A stretch of DNA of 33,547 bases from Deltaproteobacteria bacterium (GTDB taxonomy: Bacteria; Desulfobacterota; Syntrophia; Syntrophales; JAIPED01), in the NCBI GenBank assembly GCA_021737325.1, contig JAIPED010000014.1:1-33547 (forward strand), given 5' to 3'. The translations under genes were made by a program, and so were the position numbers. Under the pieces are notes generated by a model. That model was not told the origin of the DNA, did no database searches, and was given only the letters and a program-made list of their open reading frames with translations. Positions 19,978 through 33,547 of this stretch are shown one piece after another (position 1 is the first letter of the stretch; every line of letters starts with the position of its first letter).

Positions 19978-22371
19978 TCACCTTTTAACAATTTTTTGTA
20001 TCAATGCGACGGCTCCAACGGCATCCTTGGCATAAAGGGCACCGATGGATTGAGCATAGTCGCTATTAAGCACCGCTCCACCAACGATGAATTTTGTTTC
20101 TAATCCCTTTTGGCGGGCGCGGTTAATAACCTCGGGCATTTTTATCATCGTCGTGGTCATTAAGGCAGAAAGTCCAACAAAATCAGGATTTTCTTTTTCG
20201 ATTGCCGTGATTATTTTTTCCGCAGGGCAATCTTTGCCCAGATCAAGCACCCGATAACCATGATTCTTCAGTAGCAAGCCGACGATGTTTTTCCCAATAT
20301 CGTGAATATCTCCTTCAACGGTGGCAAGGATGATTGTTCCCGCATTTTTTTCGATATCTCTTTGCGCCAGTAACCCCTCTAAAAAATCCATTCCCATCTT
20401 CATCGTTTCGGCGCTCGCAACAAGCTGCGGTAAAAAAAATTCCCGTCTTTCATAGCGAGAGCCAACCTCAACAATTGCGGGAATCATTATTTCATCAACC
20501 AGCGCCTTGGCATTAACCCCTGCTTGCAGTGCGCCTTGTATTTTCTCAAGGATGTTCTCCCTCGCGCCATTCATCAGGGCTTCGGCGACGATTGCGACGG
20601 GGGAAGCGTTTGGCACTTGCGGAGATGCTTGGGCAACTTCTTGCTGGGCTCCGATATTTTTTAAGAAAACTCGAGCGTCAGCATCAAATCCGAGTAGCAG
20701 GTCGGTGGCAAGGGCGGTGCTCCGAATTGCTTCTATAGCAGGATTAACTATTGCCATTGTCAGCCCTGAAGAACGCGCCATGGCAAGCATTGAAGCGTTA
20801 AGCTCACCGCGGGCGGGCATTCCAAACGAGACATTAGAAATACCCAAAACCGTTTTTAATTTAAGCTTTTCCGTGCAGTAGCGAATGGTCTTGAGCGTTT
20901 CTTCGCCCGCGGACATATCTGTGGCAACACTCAGCGTTAGCCCATCAACCACGGCGTCCTCTTTTTTTAATCCTTTCTTTGCCAGATGTTGGAGTAGCCT
21001 ATTAACCACCTTAACACGCTCTTCACTGGTCGGGGGTAAACCTTTATCGGTTAAGGGAAGTAAAACAAACATTGCGCCGTATTTTTTTGCCAAGGGAGGA
21101 AGCGTTTTGAGTTTTGTCTTTTCCCCAGAAATGGAGTTAAGCAAAACACGACCGGGGTACAGTCGTAGTGCGGCGGCAATGGCCTCAGGGTTGCCGGAAT
21201 CAATAACCAGCGGTTTGCTGGTGCAGGTGGCGAGAATGCTCACAATACGCCGCATCGCGGCAACTCCGACAATGCCGGGAATGCCAACATTAACATCAAT
21301 TAAATCTGCACCCTGCCGCTCCTGCTCCAAGGCAATGGCACGAATGCTGGCAAACTTGCCGGAGGAGATATCTGCTTGTAGCGCCTTTTTCCCCGTGGGA
21401 TTTAGCCGCTCGCCAATTAGAAGCAAACGCCCCTTAGCGGCAATTACAACGCTTTCTCGCGGAGAGCTCAACAGATTGGCGCTTTTTACCATTTTGCGGG
21501 GAGATAAGAGGGCAATTTTTTTACGGAGAGCTTTTATATGCGCAGGTGTGGTCCCACAACAACCACCAACAAAGTTTGCCCCCGCGTCCACCAGCGCCTT
21601 GCCATAGGAGGCAAACTCCAGGGCAGGCATATTAAAAAGCGTTTCCCCATTGACCATCTTCGGCAACCCCGCGTTGGGCTTAGCCACAAGCGGTACCTGG
21701 GCAAACGGCTTCATCTTGGCGATTAGTTCCACCATCCCGTCAGGTCCAAGCGAGCAGTTACAACCTACAGCATCAGCGCCCAAGGCTTGTAGTGTTACCA
21801 AAGCGCTGATGGGGTCAGTACCTCCGAGGGTACGACCGTCGGGCTCAAAGGTCATCGTTACGATGGTAAAAATTGGGGCTGTTTCTTTGATGGCGATTAA
21901 CGCCGCACGCGCCTCCTGAATGTCAATCATCGTTTCTATGGCAATTAAATCGGCCCCTCCCGCGATGAGCCCCTTCGCTTGTTCGCGAAAAATGCTTACT
22001 GCCTCTTCAAACGCGAGATCACCAAAAGGTTCTACAAATCGCCCGGTAGGCCCAATATCACCAGCGACAAGCACATTTTTGCCCACGGCTTGGCGGGCTA
22101 TCTGCACGAGCTTCTTATTGAGAGAAGCTATCTCCTTGGCGGAATACTGGGGAAGTTTGCCGCGGTTGGCACCGAAGGTGGCAGAATAGACAACCTCCGC
22201 ACCGGCTGCGGCATAGCTTTGATGAATACTAGCAAGTGTCTCTTGATTTTCCAGGCACCAGATCTCGGGCATAACACCCGCGGGCATCCCCTTTTTTTGT
22301 AGCTCCGTCCCCCAGCCGCCATCCAAGATTATAATGCGCCTTTTACTCCTGCTGCTGATTGTCTGTCTCAT
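19978..22371 (-). CDS. metH: cobalamin-dependent methionine synthase core (Hcy, pterin, B12 domains; no activation domain)
   Basis: SD GGAGG, ATG 22371; ILDGGWGTELQKKG, FVGGCCGTTPAHI, GERLNPTGKKALQ, TVEGDIHDIGKNIVGLLLKNHGYRVLDLG; ends right after the B12 domain. Confidence 0.92.
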   Translation of the reverse strand: MRQTISSRSKRRIIILDGGWGTELQKKGMPAGVMPEIWCLENQETLASIHQSYAAAGAEVVYSATFGANRGKLPQYSAKEIASLNKKLVQIARQAVGKNVLVAGDIGPTGRFVEPFGDLAFEEAVSIFREQAKGLIAGGADLIAIETMIDIQEARAALIAIKETAPIFTIVTMTFEPDGRTLGGTDPISALVTLQALGADAVGCNCSLGPDGMVELIAKMKPFAQVPLVAKPNAGLPKMVNGETLFNMPALEFASYGKALVDAGANFVGGCCGTTPAHIKALRKKIALLSPRKMVKSANLLSSPRESVVIAAKGRLLLIGERLNPTGKKALQADISSGKFASIRAIALEQERQGADLIDVNVGIPGIVGVAAMRRIVSILATCTSKPLVIDSGNPEAIAAALRLYPGRVLLNSISGEKTKLKTLPPLAKKYGAMFVLLPLTDKGLPPTSEERVKVVNRLLQHLAKKGLKKEDAVVDGLTLSVATDMSAGEETLKTIRYCTEKLKLKTVLGISNVSFGMPARGELNASMLAMARSSGLTMAIVNPAIEAIRSTALATDLLLGFDADARVFLKNIGAQQEVAQASPQVPNASPVAIVAEALMNGARENILEKIQGALQAGVNAKALVDEIMIPAIVEVGSRYERREFFLPQLVASAETMKMGMDFLEGLLAQRDIEKNAGTIILATVEGDIHDIGKNIVGLLLKNHGYRVLDLGKDCPAEKIITAIEKENPDFVGLSALMTTTMIKMPEVINRARQKGLETKFIVGGAVLNSDYAQSIGALYAKDAVGAVALIQKIVKR

Positions 22372-22433
22372 GTTACCTCCAATCTCCGCGCCTGGCTTCT
22401 TGTCCCCGCGAACATACTTTTGCGCAATACCAA

Positions 22434-23321
22434 TCACGCCGAACAATCCACCAGTAACGATATATCCGCCGCTTTTACCGAGTGGGTAAGGGCACCAACA
22501 GAAATAAAATCCACCCCCGTTTCCGCGACCATGCGGACATTGGCAAGCGAAATGTTCCCAGAAGCCTCGAGCAAAGCCATACCATTATTGATTGCCACCG
22601 CTTGGCGCATATCGGCAATGCTCATATTATCGAGCATTATTATCGCCGCTTCGGCATCTAAAGCTAAACGCAATTCTGCGATATTTTTCACTTCAATTTC
22701 TACCTTCATGCCCTTGGGGGATTGCGCCAGCACACGATTTAGGACATCCGTTATGCCTCCCGCCAAGGCAATGTGGTTTTCTTTAATCAAGATGCCGTCA
22801 TCAAGAGCAAAGCGGTGGTTAAACCCGCCACCGACCTTCACGGCATACTTATCCAATACCCGCAAATTGGGCGCGGTTTTGCGCGTATCCAAGATGCGGG
22901 CTCCCGTGTCATTAATTGCTCGGACAAACTCTCTGGTAATGGAGGCAATGCCCGACATGCGTTGCAAGAGGTTGAGAGCGGTGCGTTCACCCGCCAAGAT
23001 GCTCACTAACGGTCCTTCCAAGTTAGCGATAAGCTCGCCCTGTGCACATTTTTCTCCATCCCGCTTGTTTAGAGAAACGGCAATAGCCGGATTGAGCAGA
23101 TAAAACACCGCGGCAAAAACACCGATACCCGCTAGAATGAATTCCTCCTTGGCGATAAGCCGTGCACGGCCCTGGCGTGAGCGGGTGGCCTCATCAGTAG
23201 CAATGAGCTTGGTGGTTAAATCTCCCGCGCCAATATCCTCACTGAGGGCATTTTTAATTATCGCTTTAATTGCGCCTGTGGCTACAGCATTTTCGGAAAA
23301 TGAGTAAATGTTGGTGGGCAT
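22434..23321 (-). CDS. nadC: nicotinate-nucleotide pyrophosphorylase (carboxylating)
   Basis: ALSEDIGAGDLTT, ERTALNLLQRMSGIAS, LDTRKTAPNLRVLDKYAVKVGGGFNHRFALDDGILIKENHI; ATG 23321 with SD GAGAGGAAGG. Confidence 0.95.
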   Translation of the reverse strand: MPTNIYSFSENAVATGAIKAIIKNALSEDIGAGDLTTKLIATDEATRSRQGRARLIAKEEFILAGIGVFAAVFYLLNPAIAVSLNKRDGEKCAQGELIANLEGPLVSILAGERTALNLLQRMSGIASITREFVRAINDTGARILDTRKTAPNLRVLDKYAVKVGGGFNHRFALDDGILIKENHIALAGGITDVLNRVLAQSPKGMKVEIEVKNIAELRLALDAEAAIIMLDNMSIADMRQAVAINNGMALLEASGNISLANVRMVAETGVDFISVGALTHSVKAADISLLVDCSA

Positions 23322-27857: not shown

Positions 27858-28082
27858 TTAAGATACGGAAACCACTTCGGTAACTTCGGGTACGGCTTTT
27901 TTCAAAAATTTCTCCACGCCCATTTTCAGCGTTACTTGTGACATGGGACAACCACGACAAGCGCCACGAAGAGCAACCTTCACCACGCCGTCCTCTCCGA
28001 CATCGATTAGCTCAATGTCCCCGCCATCCGCCTGAAGATTCGGGCGAATCTGTTCTATTGCTTGCTGAACTTTCTCTCTCAA
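27858..28082 (-). CDS. NifU-like C-terminal domain Fe-S scaffold protein
   Basis: 74 aa from TTG; IRPNLQADGGDIELIDV and LRGACRGCPMSQVTLKMGVEKFLK. Confidence 0.92.
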   Translation of the reverse strand: MREKVQQAIEQIRPNLQADGGDIELIDVGEDGVVKVALRGACRGCPMSQVTLKMGVEKFLKKAVPEVTEVVSVS

Positions 28083-28131: not shown

Positions 28132-28713
28132 CTATCTTGCAACAACCGCTCTGTCAAAGAGCGTCTCTTCAAGCATTTCCCGCGCAATATCCTTCAATTC
28201 GGGGCGAAACAACAACCAGTCCCTCTTCTCCAACACATTATCACGCAACAAAACCTTGCCGCTATGGGCATCTATCAAAAGTATCCCAAGCTGTACTACG
28301 GCATAATCATCTTCGCCGTGCTTTTCATAGCCCCATTCATTTACAAAAACCAACAGAAAATAATCGCACTCCAGGGCTTTTCCTAGAGGGGCACTCAAGC
28401 GGCCGTCGGAAAAGGAAAGGATCGAAATAAGGGAAGTGTACCTCTCGTATGGTGCCTGAAGCTCCGCATTAGCGTCCACTACTTCCCGCACTTCCTTTGC
28501 GGAAAGAACCTCCAAATCCATTTCCCTAAAGACTTCCGCGGCAATGTCTTCCACCTCTAACTTCGCTTCTTTGTGTTGCTTGACGAAAACAGGAAAAATC
28601 GCCACCTTCTTGCTCTCATCCAAACCTTCTGGATACTGATCCCCGAGGCTGGCACAACCCCCAAGGAAAAGAGCGCAAAGTATCCCACAGAAAAGTAAAC
28701 ATCGCCCGTACAT
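28132..28713 (-). CDS. putative lipoprotein
   Basis: 193 aa; signal peptide with lipobox LGGC (MYGRCLLFCGILCALFLGGCASLG); start codon directly abuts the upstream stop (TAAATG). Confidence 0.75.
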   Translation of the reverse strand: MYGRCLLFCGILCALFLGGCASLGDQYPEGLDESKKVAIFPVFVKQHKEAKLEVEDIAAEVFREMDLEVLSAKEVREVVDANAELQAPYERYTSLISILSFSDGRLSAPLGKALECDYFLLVFVNEWGYEKHGEDDYAVVQLGILLIDAHSGKVLLRDNVLEKRDWLLFRPELKDIAREMLEETLFDRAVVAR

Positions 28714-30405
28714 TTAATATACCTCTGAAATAACTAGATATAATCCCGCGAGCAGATAGCTGACCGCTAATAACCCGTCAAGAGCCACTCCGGAAACATT
28801 GGGAGAGCGGCTAGCATAAAGGCTTGCATAAATCCATAGATAAAAAAACGGAACCGCTAGTAAAGCCCGCAATGGTTCCGCAAAAGCAAGGAAAGTAATT
28901 AGAATAGTCGTTCCTGCCAAGACGCCCCGAACGACCGTCAGCGTCGTTTTTTTACCCCAAACTGTCGGCAAGGTTTTTCTTCCCGCGAAGCCATCTTCCT
29001 GCATCTCGCCAGTGTCGGAGAGCAAAGACCGGCAGAGCACCAAGGAGAAGATAACGATGATCGCCCACAAAGATGCCGCCGTAAAAGCGAAATCGCCACC
29101 AACAGGTAGTACTACGGTTGCCGAAGTCCAAGCCAACGCCACGGCAACATTTTTCCCCACCGTAATTTTTCGCAAAACATGTGAAATTGGGGAGGGAGTG
29201 TTGTAAAAAATTCCTGCAATTGCCAATATTACCAAAAACCAAAACGCCTCATCGGAATAGACCAGCACAAGGGATGCGAGCAACGGAAAAACCCCCAGCA
29301 GGAAAAAGAATTTTTCCCGTCCGAAGTATGCCGCCATTCTAAACGAACTGCCCCCATAAAAATCCCCCCCAATGCTACGGTGTAGGGTGTGCATGGCAAA
29401 GAGGAATAACACCGCCGCGCTAACGCCGGAGATGTCAATTGGTTTAGCTTGGATTTTCGCGCTGACCAAGCACAAAGATAAAGCACCAATTGCCGATAAA
29501 ATATCCGATTTCACCAGCAATGCTCCCAGACGAGAGGGAAGCATTTTAAGCGAGGAGCTGCTGTTCGCCTCGCGCAGACGCTGAACCACTCTATCTAAAA
29601 CCCAGTTGGGGGTTGATGCCCCAGCAGAAATTCCCACCCTATAACCCTGCATGGGCGGCAATGCGGCAAGCTCCTCTTCCGATTCAATGTGAAAGGTCCG
29701 CGTTCCTACGGCAGAAGCAATTTTCGCTAAGCGGCGGGTGTTGGCGCTATTTTTCCCGCCAACAACGATAACCGCATCAACGCTATGTGCCATTTTGCTA
29801 ATTTCTTTTTGCCGTTTTTCGGTGGAATCGCATATGGTGTCAAAAATGACAACTTCGGGAAAGCTCTGCTTTATTGCCTCCGTGATGGCTTGATAATCGA
29901 TTTCCGAGCAGGTTGTTTGCGCCACAACACACACCTTTTGCAGAAATGGAAGGTCTTTTGCTTCCGCCAGCGTCGCTACCGTAAACAAGGGAGCTTCGGC
30001 ATAGCCGCCAATCGCCCGTACCTCAGGGTGTTCGCTATCGCCAACTATCACGATGGCGTACCCCAGACGGCTATGTTTGCGCACGATTGCCTGCACCCTG
30101 CCTACCCTGGGGCAGGTGGCATCAACCATTTTTATTCCCCTAGCTTTAATCGCGGCCCTTTCCCCTGGAGATATGCCATGCGCTCTGATGATGAGAGTTG
30201 CGTCGCTACAATCCGCGGGTAAATCGCTGAGATCATTTATCTGTTTTACGCCTCGTTTTGCCAACAGTTCAACCGTCTGCGGGTTATGGATCAATTGTCC
30301 GTAGGTAAAAACCCTTCCTCGGGGCTGAGAAACCGCCAGGGCCAATTCCACGGCCCTTTTTACCCCCATACAAAAGCCCGCATTTTGCGCTACGATGATT
30401 TCCAT
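28714..30405 (-). CDS. ispH: 4-hydroxy-3-methylbut-2-enyl diphosphate reductase (IspH) fused to a UbiA-like prenyltransferase membrane domain
   Basis: 563 aa; N-terminal GFCMGVKRAVELAL, RAHGISP, DATCPRV, DTICDSTEKRQ; C-terminal ~280 aa polytopic with GIFYNTPSP...GKNVAVALAW and SDTGEMQEDGFAGRKTLPTVWGKK. Confidence 0.88.
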   Translation of the reverse strand: MEIIVAQNAGFCMGVKRAVELALAVSQPRGRVFTYGQLIHNPQTVELLAKRGVKQINDLSDLPADCSDATLIIRAHGISPGERAAIKARGIKMVDATCPRVGRVQAIVRKHSRLGYAIVIVGDSEHPEVRAIGGYAEAPLFTVATLAEAKDLPFLQKVCVVAQTTCSEIDYQAITEAIKQSFPEVVIFDTICDSTEKRQKEISKMAHSVDAVIVVGGKNSANTRRLAKIASAVGTRTFHIESEEELAALPPMQGYRVGISAGASTPNWVLDRVVQRLREANSSSSLKMLPSRLGALLVKSDILSAIGALSLCLVSAKIQAKPIDISGVSAAVLFLFAMHTLHRSIGGDFYGGSSFRMAAYFGREKFFFLLGVFPLLASLVLVYSDEAFWFLVILAIAGIFYNTPSPISHVLRKITVGKNVAVALAWTSATVVLPVGGDFAFTAASLWAIIVIFSLVLCRSLLSDTGEMQEDGFAGRKTLPTVWGKKTTLTVVRGVLAGTTILITFLAFAEPLRALLAVPFFYLWIYASLYASRSPNVSGVALDGLLAVSYLLAGLYLVISEVY

Positions 30406-30411
30406 TTTTTG

Positions 30412-31161
30412 CTACTTCCCGCATGTGTGGTTGATACAGTAGAGGAAAAACTCCTTGTTGCCATCATGTCCGGCAGGTTGCGCTTCGTAAACGCCGCGCA
30501 CCTCCAAGCCTTGCGCTCTTGCAAAGCTAACGATGCCCTGTATTGCCTTCTCACGCACCGCTTCATCGGTAATGATACCACCTGCCCCCACTTCTTCTCT
30601 CTTGGCTTCAAACTGCGGCTTAATCAAGGCGAGGACAATCCCTTCTTTGCGGACGGCCTGCGTAATAACAGGAAGAACCATCCTCAGTGAAATAAAAGAG
30701 ACATCAATCACAGCGATGTCAAGCGCTTCCGTGAGAACGGTGGTATCAAAATTTCTGATGTTAACTCCCTCCCAGACAACCACCCGCTCATCGCACCGCA
30801 ATTTCCAAGCTAACAACCCCTTGCCGACATCAACGGCGTAAACTCTTCGCACTCCCTGCTCAAGCAGACAATCGGTAAATCCCCCTGTAGAGGCTCCGAC
30901 ATCCATCGCGCAAAAACCGTCCACGGAGATGTTGAATTCATGGAGCGCTCCGAACAATTTTACCCCTCCCCTACTTACGAAGGGGTGCTTTTTGCTTCGC
31001 AGTTTGATGGTACTGTCAGGCGCAAAGCGATGACCAGCTTTATCCGCCAAAGATTCCTGAACAAATACTTCCCCCGCCATGATGGCACTTTGCGCCTGCG
31101 CCAGGGAAGGGAACAAGCCACGGGAAACAAGTAGTTCATCAAGTCGTATTTTCTTCGTCAT
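30412..31161 (-). CDS. tlyA: TlyA family rRNA (cytidine-2'-O)-methyltransferase
   Basis: 249 aa; S4 domain KIRLDELLVSRGLFPSLAQAQSAIMAGEVFV, GVKLFGALHEF, DVGASTGGFTDCLLEQGVRRVYAVDVG, LIKPQFE. Confidence 0.95.
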   Translation of the reverse strand: MTKKIRLDELLVSRGLFPSLAQAQSAIMAGEVFVQESLADKAGHRFAPDSTIKLRSKKHPFVSRGGVKLFGALHEFNISVDGFCAMDVGASTGGFTDCLLEQGVRRVYAVDVGKGLLAWKLRCDERVVVWEGVNIRNFDTTVLTEALDIAVIDVSFISLRMVLPVITQAVRKEGIVLALIKPQFEAKREEVGAGGIITDEAVREKAIQGIVSFARAQGLEVRGVYEAQPAGHDGNKEFFLYCINHTCGK

Positions 31162-31218: not shown

Positions 31219-33096
31219 CTACTTGGCGATTCCTAAAAGTTCTCTTGCTGCGCTTAACATCGCCGTCGCATCAATTCCGGCGGTCGCTTTAAGCTCATCT
31301 TGCGAGGCTTGGTGATGGAAACTGTCAGGAATGGCCAAGCGCTTCAGCCGCAGATCCGTAATACCGGCATCCATTAGCAATTCGGCTATTGCCGAACCCA
31401 ATCCCCCGACAATGCTGTTTTCTTCAACAGTGATAATGCGCTTAGTTGAGCCCGCCCATTCCTTAATAAGACGGGCATCAAGCGGCTTAACAAAGCGACA
31501 ATTGATAACGCTCACGGCTATTCCCTCTTCCGCCAATTTTTGCGCCACGCCTAGCGCGGGGTACACGGTTGCACCGATGGCAAAGATAGTTAAATCCTTG
31601 CCCTGCAGAAGCACTTCTCCCTTACCAATCGCCAATCTTTGCGGCTTTCTTGGTGTAACGCCTTCAGCCGTGCCTCGCGGATAGCGGATGGACATGGGCG
31701 CACCAGCATTTATTGCGGTGTAGAGTAAGTCGCGCAACTCATTCCCATCCTTGGGGGCGGAGATGATGATGTTGGGGATGGTCCGTAGATAGGAAAAATC
31801 AAAAACACCATGGTGGGTGGCTCCATCGTCGCCAACAAAGCCGCCGCGGTCCAAGGCAAAGACAACGGGGAGATTTTGCAGGCAAACATCGTGCAAAATC
31901 TGGTCGTAGGATCTCTGTAAAAAAGAGGAGTATATCGCCACTATCGGGCGAAACCCCGATAAAGAAAGGGCTCCGGCAAAGGTTACCGCGTGTTGTTCGG
32001 CAATACCAACATCAAAAAACCGCCGCGGAAATTCGCGAGCAAAACCTTCTAACCCCGTCCCATCTGTCATTGCGGCCGTTATGGCCACCACCCGCTGATC
32101 CTCACGGGCGATTTCCGTTAGCGTATCGCCAAACACTTTAGAGTAGGAGGGGAGCTTGCTTACAGTTTTGGAAGCACCTGTCGCAAGATCAAAGGCACCA
32201 ACGCCGTGGAATTTATGCGGCATTTTTTCGGAAGGTTTGTAGCCCTTGCCTTTCTGGGTGATCACATGCACAAGTACGGGACCGGGCATTTCGCGGATAT
32301 TTTCAAAATTTTTTATCAGGTTGTCCAAGCGGTGACCGTCAAGCGGTCCGACATAGGTGTAACCCAAATCTTCAAAAAAGCTTCCCGGCATAACAATGTT
32401 CTTGACGGATACTTCCAAGCTTTTGCCCAACTTCACCATGCCCTCGCCAAAATGGGGGATGGAGGAAAGCACCCTTTTGATCCCCGCTCGGGCTGTCAGG
32501 GTGTGCTGCCCCGTCATGATGCGGTTAAGATAGGAGGAAAGCGCTCCTACATTGGGTGAAATGGACATTTCATTATCGTTTAGTACAATGTTGAGATTCC
32601 GCGGACGGGAGCCAAACCAATTAAGTGCTTCCAGGGCAATGCCGCTATTGAGAGCACCATCGCCAATGACCGCAACAACCCGATTTGCTTCTCCTTGTAG
32701 ATGCATGGCTTCCACCATCCCCGTTGCGGCGGAAATGGAAGTGCTACTGTGGCCAACATTGAAGGTGTCGTAGGGTGATTCTTCGCGCTTAGGAAAACCG
32801 CTGATTCCTCCTGGCTGGCGCAGAGTGTGAAAACGATGACGACGACCAGTGATAATTTTGTGCGCGTAGGTTTGGTGGCCAACATCCCAAACGATTTTAT
32901 CAATGGGGGTGTTGTACACATAGTGCAGGGCAACCGTCATTTCTACGACTCCCAGCGAGGGAGCGAGATGCCCGCCCGTTTGCGCAACGGTCTGGATAAT
33001 TAGCTCCCGAATTTCCGCACAAAGAGCGTTAAGCTCCGCGATATCCAAATTTTTGATATCTGCGGGAGAGTTTATCTGGGTTAACAACTTTTTCAT
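31219..33096 (-). CDS. dxs: 1-deoxy-D-xylulose-5-phosphate synthase
   Basis: 625 aa; VGHQTYAHKIITGR, GHSSTSISAATGMV, VIGDGALNSGIALEALN, YVGPLDGH, DVGIAEQHAVTFAGALSLSGFRPIVAIYSSFLQRSYDQ, DRGGFVGDDGATHHGVFD. Confidence 0.98.
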   Translation of the reverse strand: MKKLLTQINSPADIKNLDIAELNALCAEIRELIIQTVAQTGGHLAPSLGVVEMTVALHYVYNTPIDKIVWDVGHQTYAHKIITGRRHRFHTLRQPGGISGFPKREESPYDTFNVGHSSTSISAATGMVEAMHLQGEANRVVAVIGDGALNSGIALEALNWFGSRPRNLNIVLNDNEMSISPNVGALSSYLNRIMTGQHTLTARAGIKRVLSSIPHFGEGMVKLGKSLEVSVKNIVMPGSFFEDLGYTYVGPLDGHRLDNLIKNFENIREMPGPVLVHVITQKGKGYKPSEKMPHKFHGVGAFDLATGASKTVSKLPSYSKVFGDTLTEIAREDQRVVAITAAMTDGTGLEGFAREFPRRFFDVGIAEQHAVTFAGALSLSGFRPIVAIYSSFLQRSYDQILHDVCLQNLPVVFALDRGGFVGDDGATHHGVFDFSYLRTIPNIIISAPKDGNELRDLLYTAINAGAPMSIRYPRGTAEGVTPRKPQRLAIGKGEVLLQGKDLTIFAIGATVYPALGVAQKLAEEGIAVSVINCRFVKPLDARLIKEWAGSTKRIITVEENSIVGGLGSAIAELLMDAGITDLRLKRLAIPDSFHHQASQDELKATAGIDATAMLSAARELLGIAK

Positions 33097-33125: not shown

Positions 33126-33547
33126 TTAGATAATCTTTATCCGACCAGCGTTATTATCCGTAACACTTCCCACAATCGCTACGCCGGTAAAACCCTCATC
33201 CTGAAGTACTCTCAACATCTCTTGCGCCTGCTTTAAAGGTAGCGAGATGAACAAGCCACCAGAAGTTTGCGGATCAAAAAGGCATTCAACGGCAAATTCA
33301 TCGGCGCTAGCGACAATCTCGGTGTGGGGAAGGTAAAACTTTTTATTGCGATAGAGCCCCCCCGGCAAGAAGCCTTCCATGGCTAGCTCCTTAGTACCGT
33401 CAATAATTGGTAGCGCATGGGAATCAATGATAAAGCCTGTTTCACTATCCTTGATCATCTCTAACGCATGACCAATCAAGCCAAAACCCGTTATATCGGT
33501 ACATGCGCTTACAGAACCCAAATCCTGGGCAATCTCACTTGCTCGTT
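33126..33547 (-). CDS. selD: selenide, water dikinase (partial, 5' end beyond the window)
   Basis: C-terminal part; ASEIAQDLGSVSACTDITGFGLIGHALEM and FDPQTSGGLFISLP; frame stays open to the window edge. Confidence 0.92.
   Translation of the reverse strand, partial: RASEIAQDLGSVSACTDITGFGLIGHALEMIKDSETGFIIDSHALPIIDGTKELAMEGFLPGGLYRNKKFYLPHTEIVASADEFAVECLFDPQTSGGLFISLPLKQAQEMLRVLQDEGFTGVAIVGSVTDNNAGRIKII

Follow-up and report, generated by a model that had tools for sequence, protein, structure and literature searches.

What does a UbiA-type membrane domain do when it is permanently joined to IspH, the HMBPP reductase at the end of the MEP pathway? The question is raised by a gene in the window, i.e. 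the stretch of 33,547 nucleotides analysed here (Table 1), in which the preliminary description recognised a single 563-aa reading frame with IspH, a membrane domain and no stop between them; the frame itself and its Pfam matches confirm this. Also the claim of a full-length IspH with its Cys motifs is borne out. The fusion protein matches LYTB with residues 3-277 (292.8 bits, Pfam cut-off 24.5) and TIGR00216 with 281.4 bits (cut-off 187.85), and 3dnf is the best match among the solved IspH structures. The cluster cysteines C12, C98 and C192 and the segments HPE, TT, SxN and GAST are intact and kept across an alignment of 64 fusions, and the active-site residues H40, H126, E128, T164-T165, S220, N222 and S264 are all present. 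Judged by these residues, the IspH half should be active.

The C-terminal half is UbiA-derived and, by its composition, predicted to be membrane-bound. Comparison of this region with the UbiA family, which had been suggested as a check, gave a score above the curated Pfam cut-off of 34.2 bits, both in the context of the fusion protein (residues 367-535 against PF01040, 37.4 bits) and for the domain searched alone (E 3.3e-10, 40.1 bits). Furthermore, a profile of fused UbiA domains (A1) aligned in hhalign with standalone UbiA proteins of order-mates at 98.5% probability (E 2e-15), so that the assignment to the UbiA superfamily was right. Hydropathy indicates about eight hydrophobic segments, and the UbiA fold has 8-9 transmembrane helices. 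Searching solved structures by sequence, with the domain alone or as a profile, found nothing related. An AlphaFold model of the window protein, made with a single close relative in the alignment (A2), is of moderate quality in the IspH part, and its residues 282-563 have pLDDT values below 50 and are unusable. The G+C content per codon position is level across the junction. An assembly error, a read error at the junction or a missed stop can be ruled out, since the same uninterrupted fusion recurs in about 110 independent genomes of the phylum, which also excludes the stop or frameshift that the preliminary description had named as the observation that would speak against a fusion.

Table 1. 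Features of the IspH-UbiA locus in the window, with the evidence for each.
Feature	Position	Strand	Evidence
IspH-UbiA fusion ORF	28714..30405	-	563 aa, ATG start, no internal stops
IspH (LytB) domain, residues 1-281	29563..30405	-	Pfam LYTB E 2.8e-87; 3dnf E 2.6e-61; conservation of residues across 64 homologues
UbiA-like membrane domain, residues about 290-563	28717..29538	-	Pfam UbiA E 2.2e-9; hhalign profile; hydropathy
Degenerate first aspartate-rich motif, residues 342-350, HRSIGGDFY	29356..29382	-	alignments; profile comparison; mutagenesis in PMC4106721
Y401, retained counterpart of UbiA Tyr139, which is near-universal	29203..29205	-	
Second aspartate-rich motif, residues 464-478, DTGEMQEDGFAGRKT	28972..29016	-	D471 invariant; E467 instead of Asp
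dxs, first MEP pathway enzyme, upstream of the fusion	31219..33096	-	TIGR00204 825 bits; synteny
tlyA rRNA methyltransferase, upstream of the fusion gene at a distance of 6 bp	30412..31161	-	TIGR00478 214 bits; synteny
Putative lipoprotein, abuts the fusion gene, conserved through the order	28132..28713	-	no Pfam match; synteny, 24-32% identity
NifU-type Fe-S carrier, conserved neighbour	27858..28082	-	PF01106 E 4.2e-30; synteny

The preliminary description left aside how well such a fusion has been described. IspH-UbiA 'Rosetta stone' proteins were named and surveyed in 2015 by Rao et al. (Chem Sci; PMC4746011), who regarded their C-terminal UbiA-like domain, PT_UbiA_5, as of unknown function. 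Their 47 fusions all came from sulfate reducers, carried two DXXXD repeats and occurred in genomes with a separate UbiA/MenA; full-length active protein was not obtained (PMC4746011). Beyond that study, a full-text literature search for 'IspH-UbiA' returned a single mention in a 2025 paper. The window protein resembles these fusions in domain order, size, broad group (deltaproteobacteria) and the position of the UbiA-like domain C-terminal to IspH, but its first repeat is gone, and neither dsrA nor a second UbiA protein was found in its genome. It also resembles the IspH-RPS1 fusions (NCBIfam NF000907) in having an IspH with a C-terminal partner, and its IspH part reaches 318 bits with that model; however, their partner consists of S1 repeats instead of a membrane domain, and the score lies below the cut-off of 624 bits.

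The fusion, published in 2015, is common in this phylum. Among 297 phylum genomes, 244 of them of high quality, a search with the whole protein gave full-length matches in a large share, in single open frames of mostly about 560-630 aa. Matches to the A1 profile occur in 115 of the 297 genomes (94 of the 244 of high quality), and about 110 of them lie in frames that are, judged from open-frame lengths, long enough for both domains. This gives the spread within the phylum of the two-domain protein, for which a survey had been proposed. Few matches are cut by contig ends, and a standalone relative was found in three of the 297 genomes only. A weak scan of genome contigs, our sole look beyond the phylum, yielded only two relatives. 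Pairwise identities of the IspH and UbiA halves are correlated (0.90, 2016 pairs), and in both the IspH and the UbiA tree the order of the window is a single clade, as expected for an old fusion with mostly vertical inheritance. Divergence has been faster in the UbiA domain than in IspH, with the largest difference in the window, where the domain sits on a very long branch: the mean ratio of UbiA to IspH identity is 0.78 in the order and 0.54 for pairs with the window protein, followed by 0.62 for genome G206. When ten further genomes were added, the ratio of the window was still the lowest, with G309 and G335 at 0.81-0.83. A relaxation of the fused domain through loss of other UbiA proteins was considered and is not claimed; the window and G206 fit this idea, but G309 and G335, in which only the fused UbiA was seen as well, do not.

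AfUbiA holds its Mg ions with N68 and D72 of the first motif and with D198 and D202 of the second; GPP binding is abolished by either of the exchanges N68A and D72A, and the equivalent variants of EcMenA lose function (PMC4106721). The UbiA-like signatures quoted in the preliminary description correspond to the TM4-loop and the second motif and stand; the first motif, which it did not mention, is degenerate. Where UbiA superfamily prenyltransferases (MenA, MqnP, UbiA; AfUbiA) have NDxxDxxxD, the window protein has H342 and G346 at the positions of N68 and D72 and no third Asp, and its Pfam match begins only at profile position 71, beyond the first motif. The comparison of the A1 profile with standalone UbiA proteins aligns the LNRfxD of the fused family with the canonical N-D-x-x-D. 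Of the 64 fusions, 54 have Asn at position 342; at position 346, Asp is kept in 39 (within the order of the window, in 6 of 24) and lost in 25. The third Asp is essentially missing throughout. Among the standalone relatives found, the closest (L172) keeps the motif intact as NRLTDVEED. Fusions of the L155, L168 and L170 types have no recognisable first motif and are still UbiA-like by profile, with weak Pfam hits; for the L155 type, the comparison reached 95% (E 2.9e-8). The membrane domains fused to IspH in L155, L156, L158, L160, L161, L166 and L167 likewise show no recognisable first UbiA motif. The very divergent fusions L157, L164 and L165, in which this motif is equally unrecognisable, were kept out of the argument, because the profile comparison (1.7%) does not support UbiA for them. 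With both first-motif ligands lost in the window and one or more in many relatives, the evidence speaks against ordinary Mg-dependent prenyl transfer.

Other features of the site persist. Besides the profile homology, the window domain shares with the UbiA prenyltransferases the equivalent of Tyr139, which is nearly universal in UbiA (PMC4106721), and the basic residue at position 412. Of the second motif, DxxxD, it keeps a conservative variant, ExxxD (E467 and D471, with D464 upstream). W426, G475 and T478 are also kept, and D471 is Asp in 64 of 64 fusions. Retention of D471, Y401, W426 and the basic residue suggests that something is still bound or that these residues are structurally needed.

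The source genome (G000) is a fragmented draft of 89% completeness. The fused gene is its sole PF01040 match, MqnA was not found in the draft, the only match to the MenD model reaches 62 bits (cut-off 244), and of the menA/MqnP models none matched the fusion protein over its cut-off, the only match being PRK12872.1-3 with 23.7 bits. G206 (97% complete) and G309 (91%) have one PF01040 match each, whose position is unlisted for G206, although this genome does contain the fused gene, and no MqnA or MenD over the cut-off; loss of all these genes through incompleteness in three genomes is unlikely. Since no UbiA protein besides the fused domain was found, and MqnA and MenD are absent, the domain is unlikely to serve menaquinone prenylation in G000. 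Many order-mates have other UbiA proteins, some of them MenA-like (e.g. L047). The near-complete genomes G157, G291, G271, G250 and G030, all of the same order, contain extra UbiA proteins, yet no MqnA or MenD over the cut-off. G000 and G206 each have two trans-prenyl synthases, in G000 an FPP synthase and an enzyme closest to octaprenyl diphosphate synthase. In G309, where the fusion is present, no trans-prenyl diphosphate synthase (PF00348) was found. Finally, dsrA was not detected in G000, and it is missing over the cut-off from 15 of the 36 fusion genomes tested, near-complete ones included; hence, sulfate reducers are not the only carriers of the fusion.

The gene order xseA-ispA-dxs-tlyA-ispH::ubiA-lipoprotein-nifU is conserved among order-mates; the window contains the portion from dxs to nifU, and a different contig of G000 carries xseA and ispA. 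It is plausible that the NifU-type protein serves as Fe-S carrier for IspH. In distant lineages the neighbours of the fusion gene differ, and those that recur there (family-2 glycosyltransferase, PlsY-like and ParA/ParB-like proteins, named from sequence) gave no functional lead. Elsewhere in the window, positions 19978-22446 encode a protein similar to MetH that has homocysteine, pterin and B12 domains and no match to the reactivation domain, and positions 33126-33521 at the contig end encode, from the translation alone, an apparent C-terminal part of selenophosphate synthase (SelD).

The simplest account of these observations, to which we give about an even chance, is that a UbiA-derived domain, in which canonical prenyltransferase activity is low or absent, tethers IspH to the membrane. 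A working HMBPP reductase would then be carried on a UbiA-fold domain whose main job is probably to hold it on the cytoplasmic side of the inner membrane, near the site where IPP and DMAPP become polyprenyl diphosphates. Because the substrate-gripping residues are lost, the membrane part of this copy is probably an anchor or a repurposed domain. Several lines of evidence point to tethering: both domains score over curated cut-offs and all IspH active-site residues are present; whole lineages without the first motif still retain the fused membrane domain; the UbiA-like domain occurs almost exclusively fused to IspH; G000 and likewise G206 have one UbiA protein and neither MqnA nor MenD; the gene lies in an MEP cluster; and its UbiA domain outpaces IspH in divergence. 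Against it stand the Asn at the N68 equivalent in most fusions, the invariant D471, Y401, W426 and the basic residue 412, which go beyond the needs of a bare anchor, and the second trans-prenyl synthase of G000 and G206, which might supply a real transferase with its donor. Moreover, His342 could still bind a metal. Of the interpretations in the preliminary description, which also rested on the correct IspH and UbiA assignments, membrane tethering of the last MEP step is still the best reading, while coupling to quinone metabolism is unsupported here, as MqnA, MenD and another UbiA protein were not found in the genome and the motif that canonically binds the donor is lost.

The same conserved residues can be read as those of an active, unusual prenyltransferase, which would place chains made from the product of IspH onto a non-quinone acceptor, in line with the Rosetta-stone reading of Rao et al. 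We consider this rather unlikely. Most fusions conserve the motif-1 Asn, the Tyr, the Trp, the basic residue and D471, the domain has been retained over great evolutionary distances, and a second, long-chain-type prenyl diphosphate synthase is kept where no other UbiA protein could use its product. However, the window protein has neither motif-1 metal ligand, the third motif-1 Asp is essentially absent from the family, a quinone acceptor pathway was not found in the genome, and the neighbours in other lineages include no obvious acceptor-pathway genes. A pseudo-enzyme sensor, in which a residual site binds prenyl diphosphate or polyprenyl phosphate and tunes the activity or placement of IspH as MEP feedback, would explain why a site with an invariant Asp, conserved in part and with an incomplete catalytic motif, is permanently joined to the last enzyme of the pathway; the lost N68 and D72 equivalents predict weak diphosphate binding, and we regard this possibility as improbable. 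That the domain is a decaying passenger sequence, at present functionless in the lineage of the window, would suit its very long branch and the lowest UbiA:IspH identity ratio in the order, but is very improbable, as decay should produce stops or frameshifts, and the domain's roughly 280 codons form an open frame in which D471, G475, T478, W426 and Y401 persist.

Compared with Rao et al., the loss of the first motif, the missing tie to dsrA, the sole UbiA protein in a genome without detected MqnA and MenD, and the conserved MEP cluster are new. For the family as a whole, we tentatively suggest that IspH-UbiA may be a widespread membrane-bound form of IspH, in which the UbiA fold would repeatedly have become a pseudo-enzyme that anchors the last MEP step or senses prenyl diphosphates for it, independently of quinone biosynthesis. 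The published view of a known fusion family is corrected, in that its UbiA half is often without the metal ligands that define the class, and persists in genomes without detectable quinone prenylation and without a tie to sulfate reduction. The question on the fused UbiA domain thereby narrows to whether it transfers prenyl chains at all or places IspH on the membrane.
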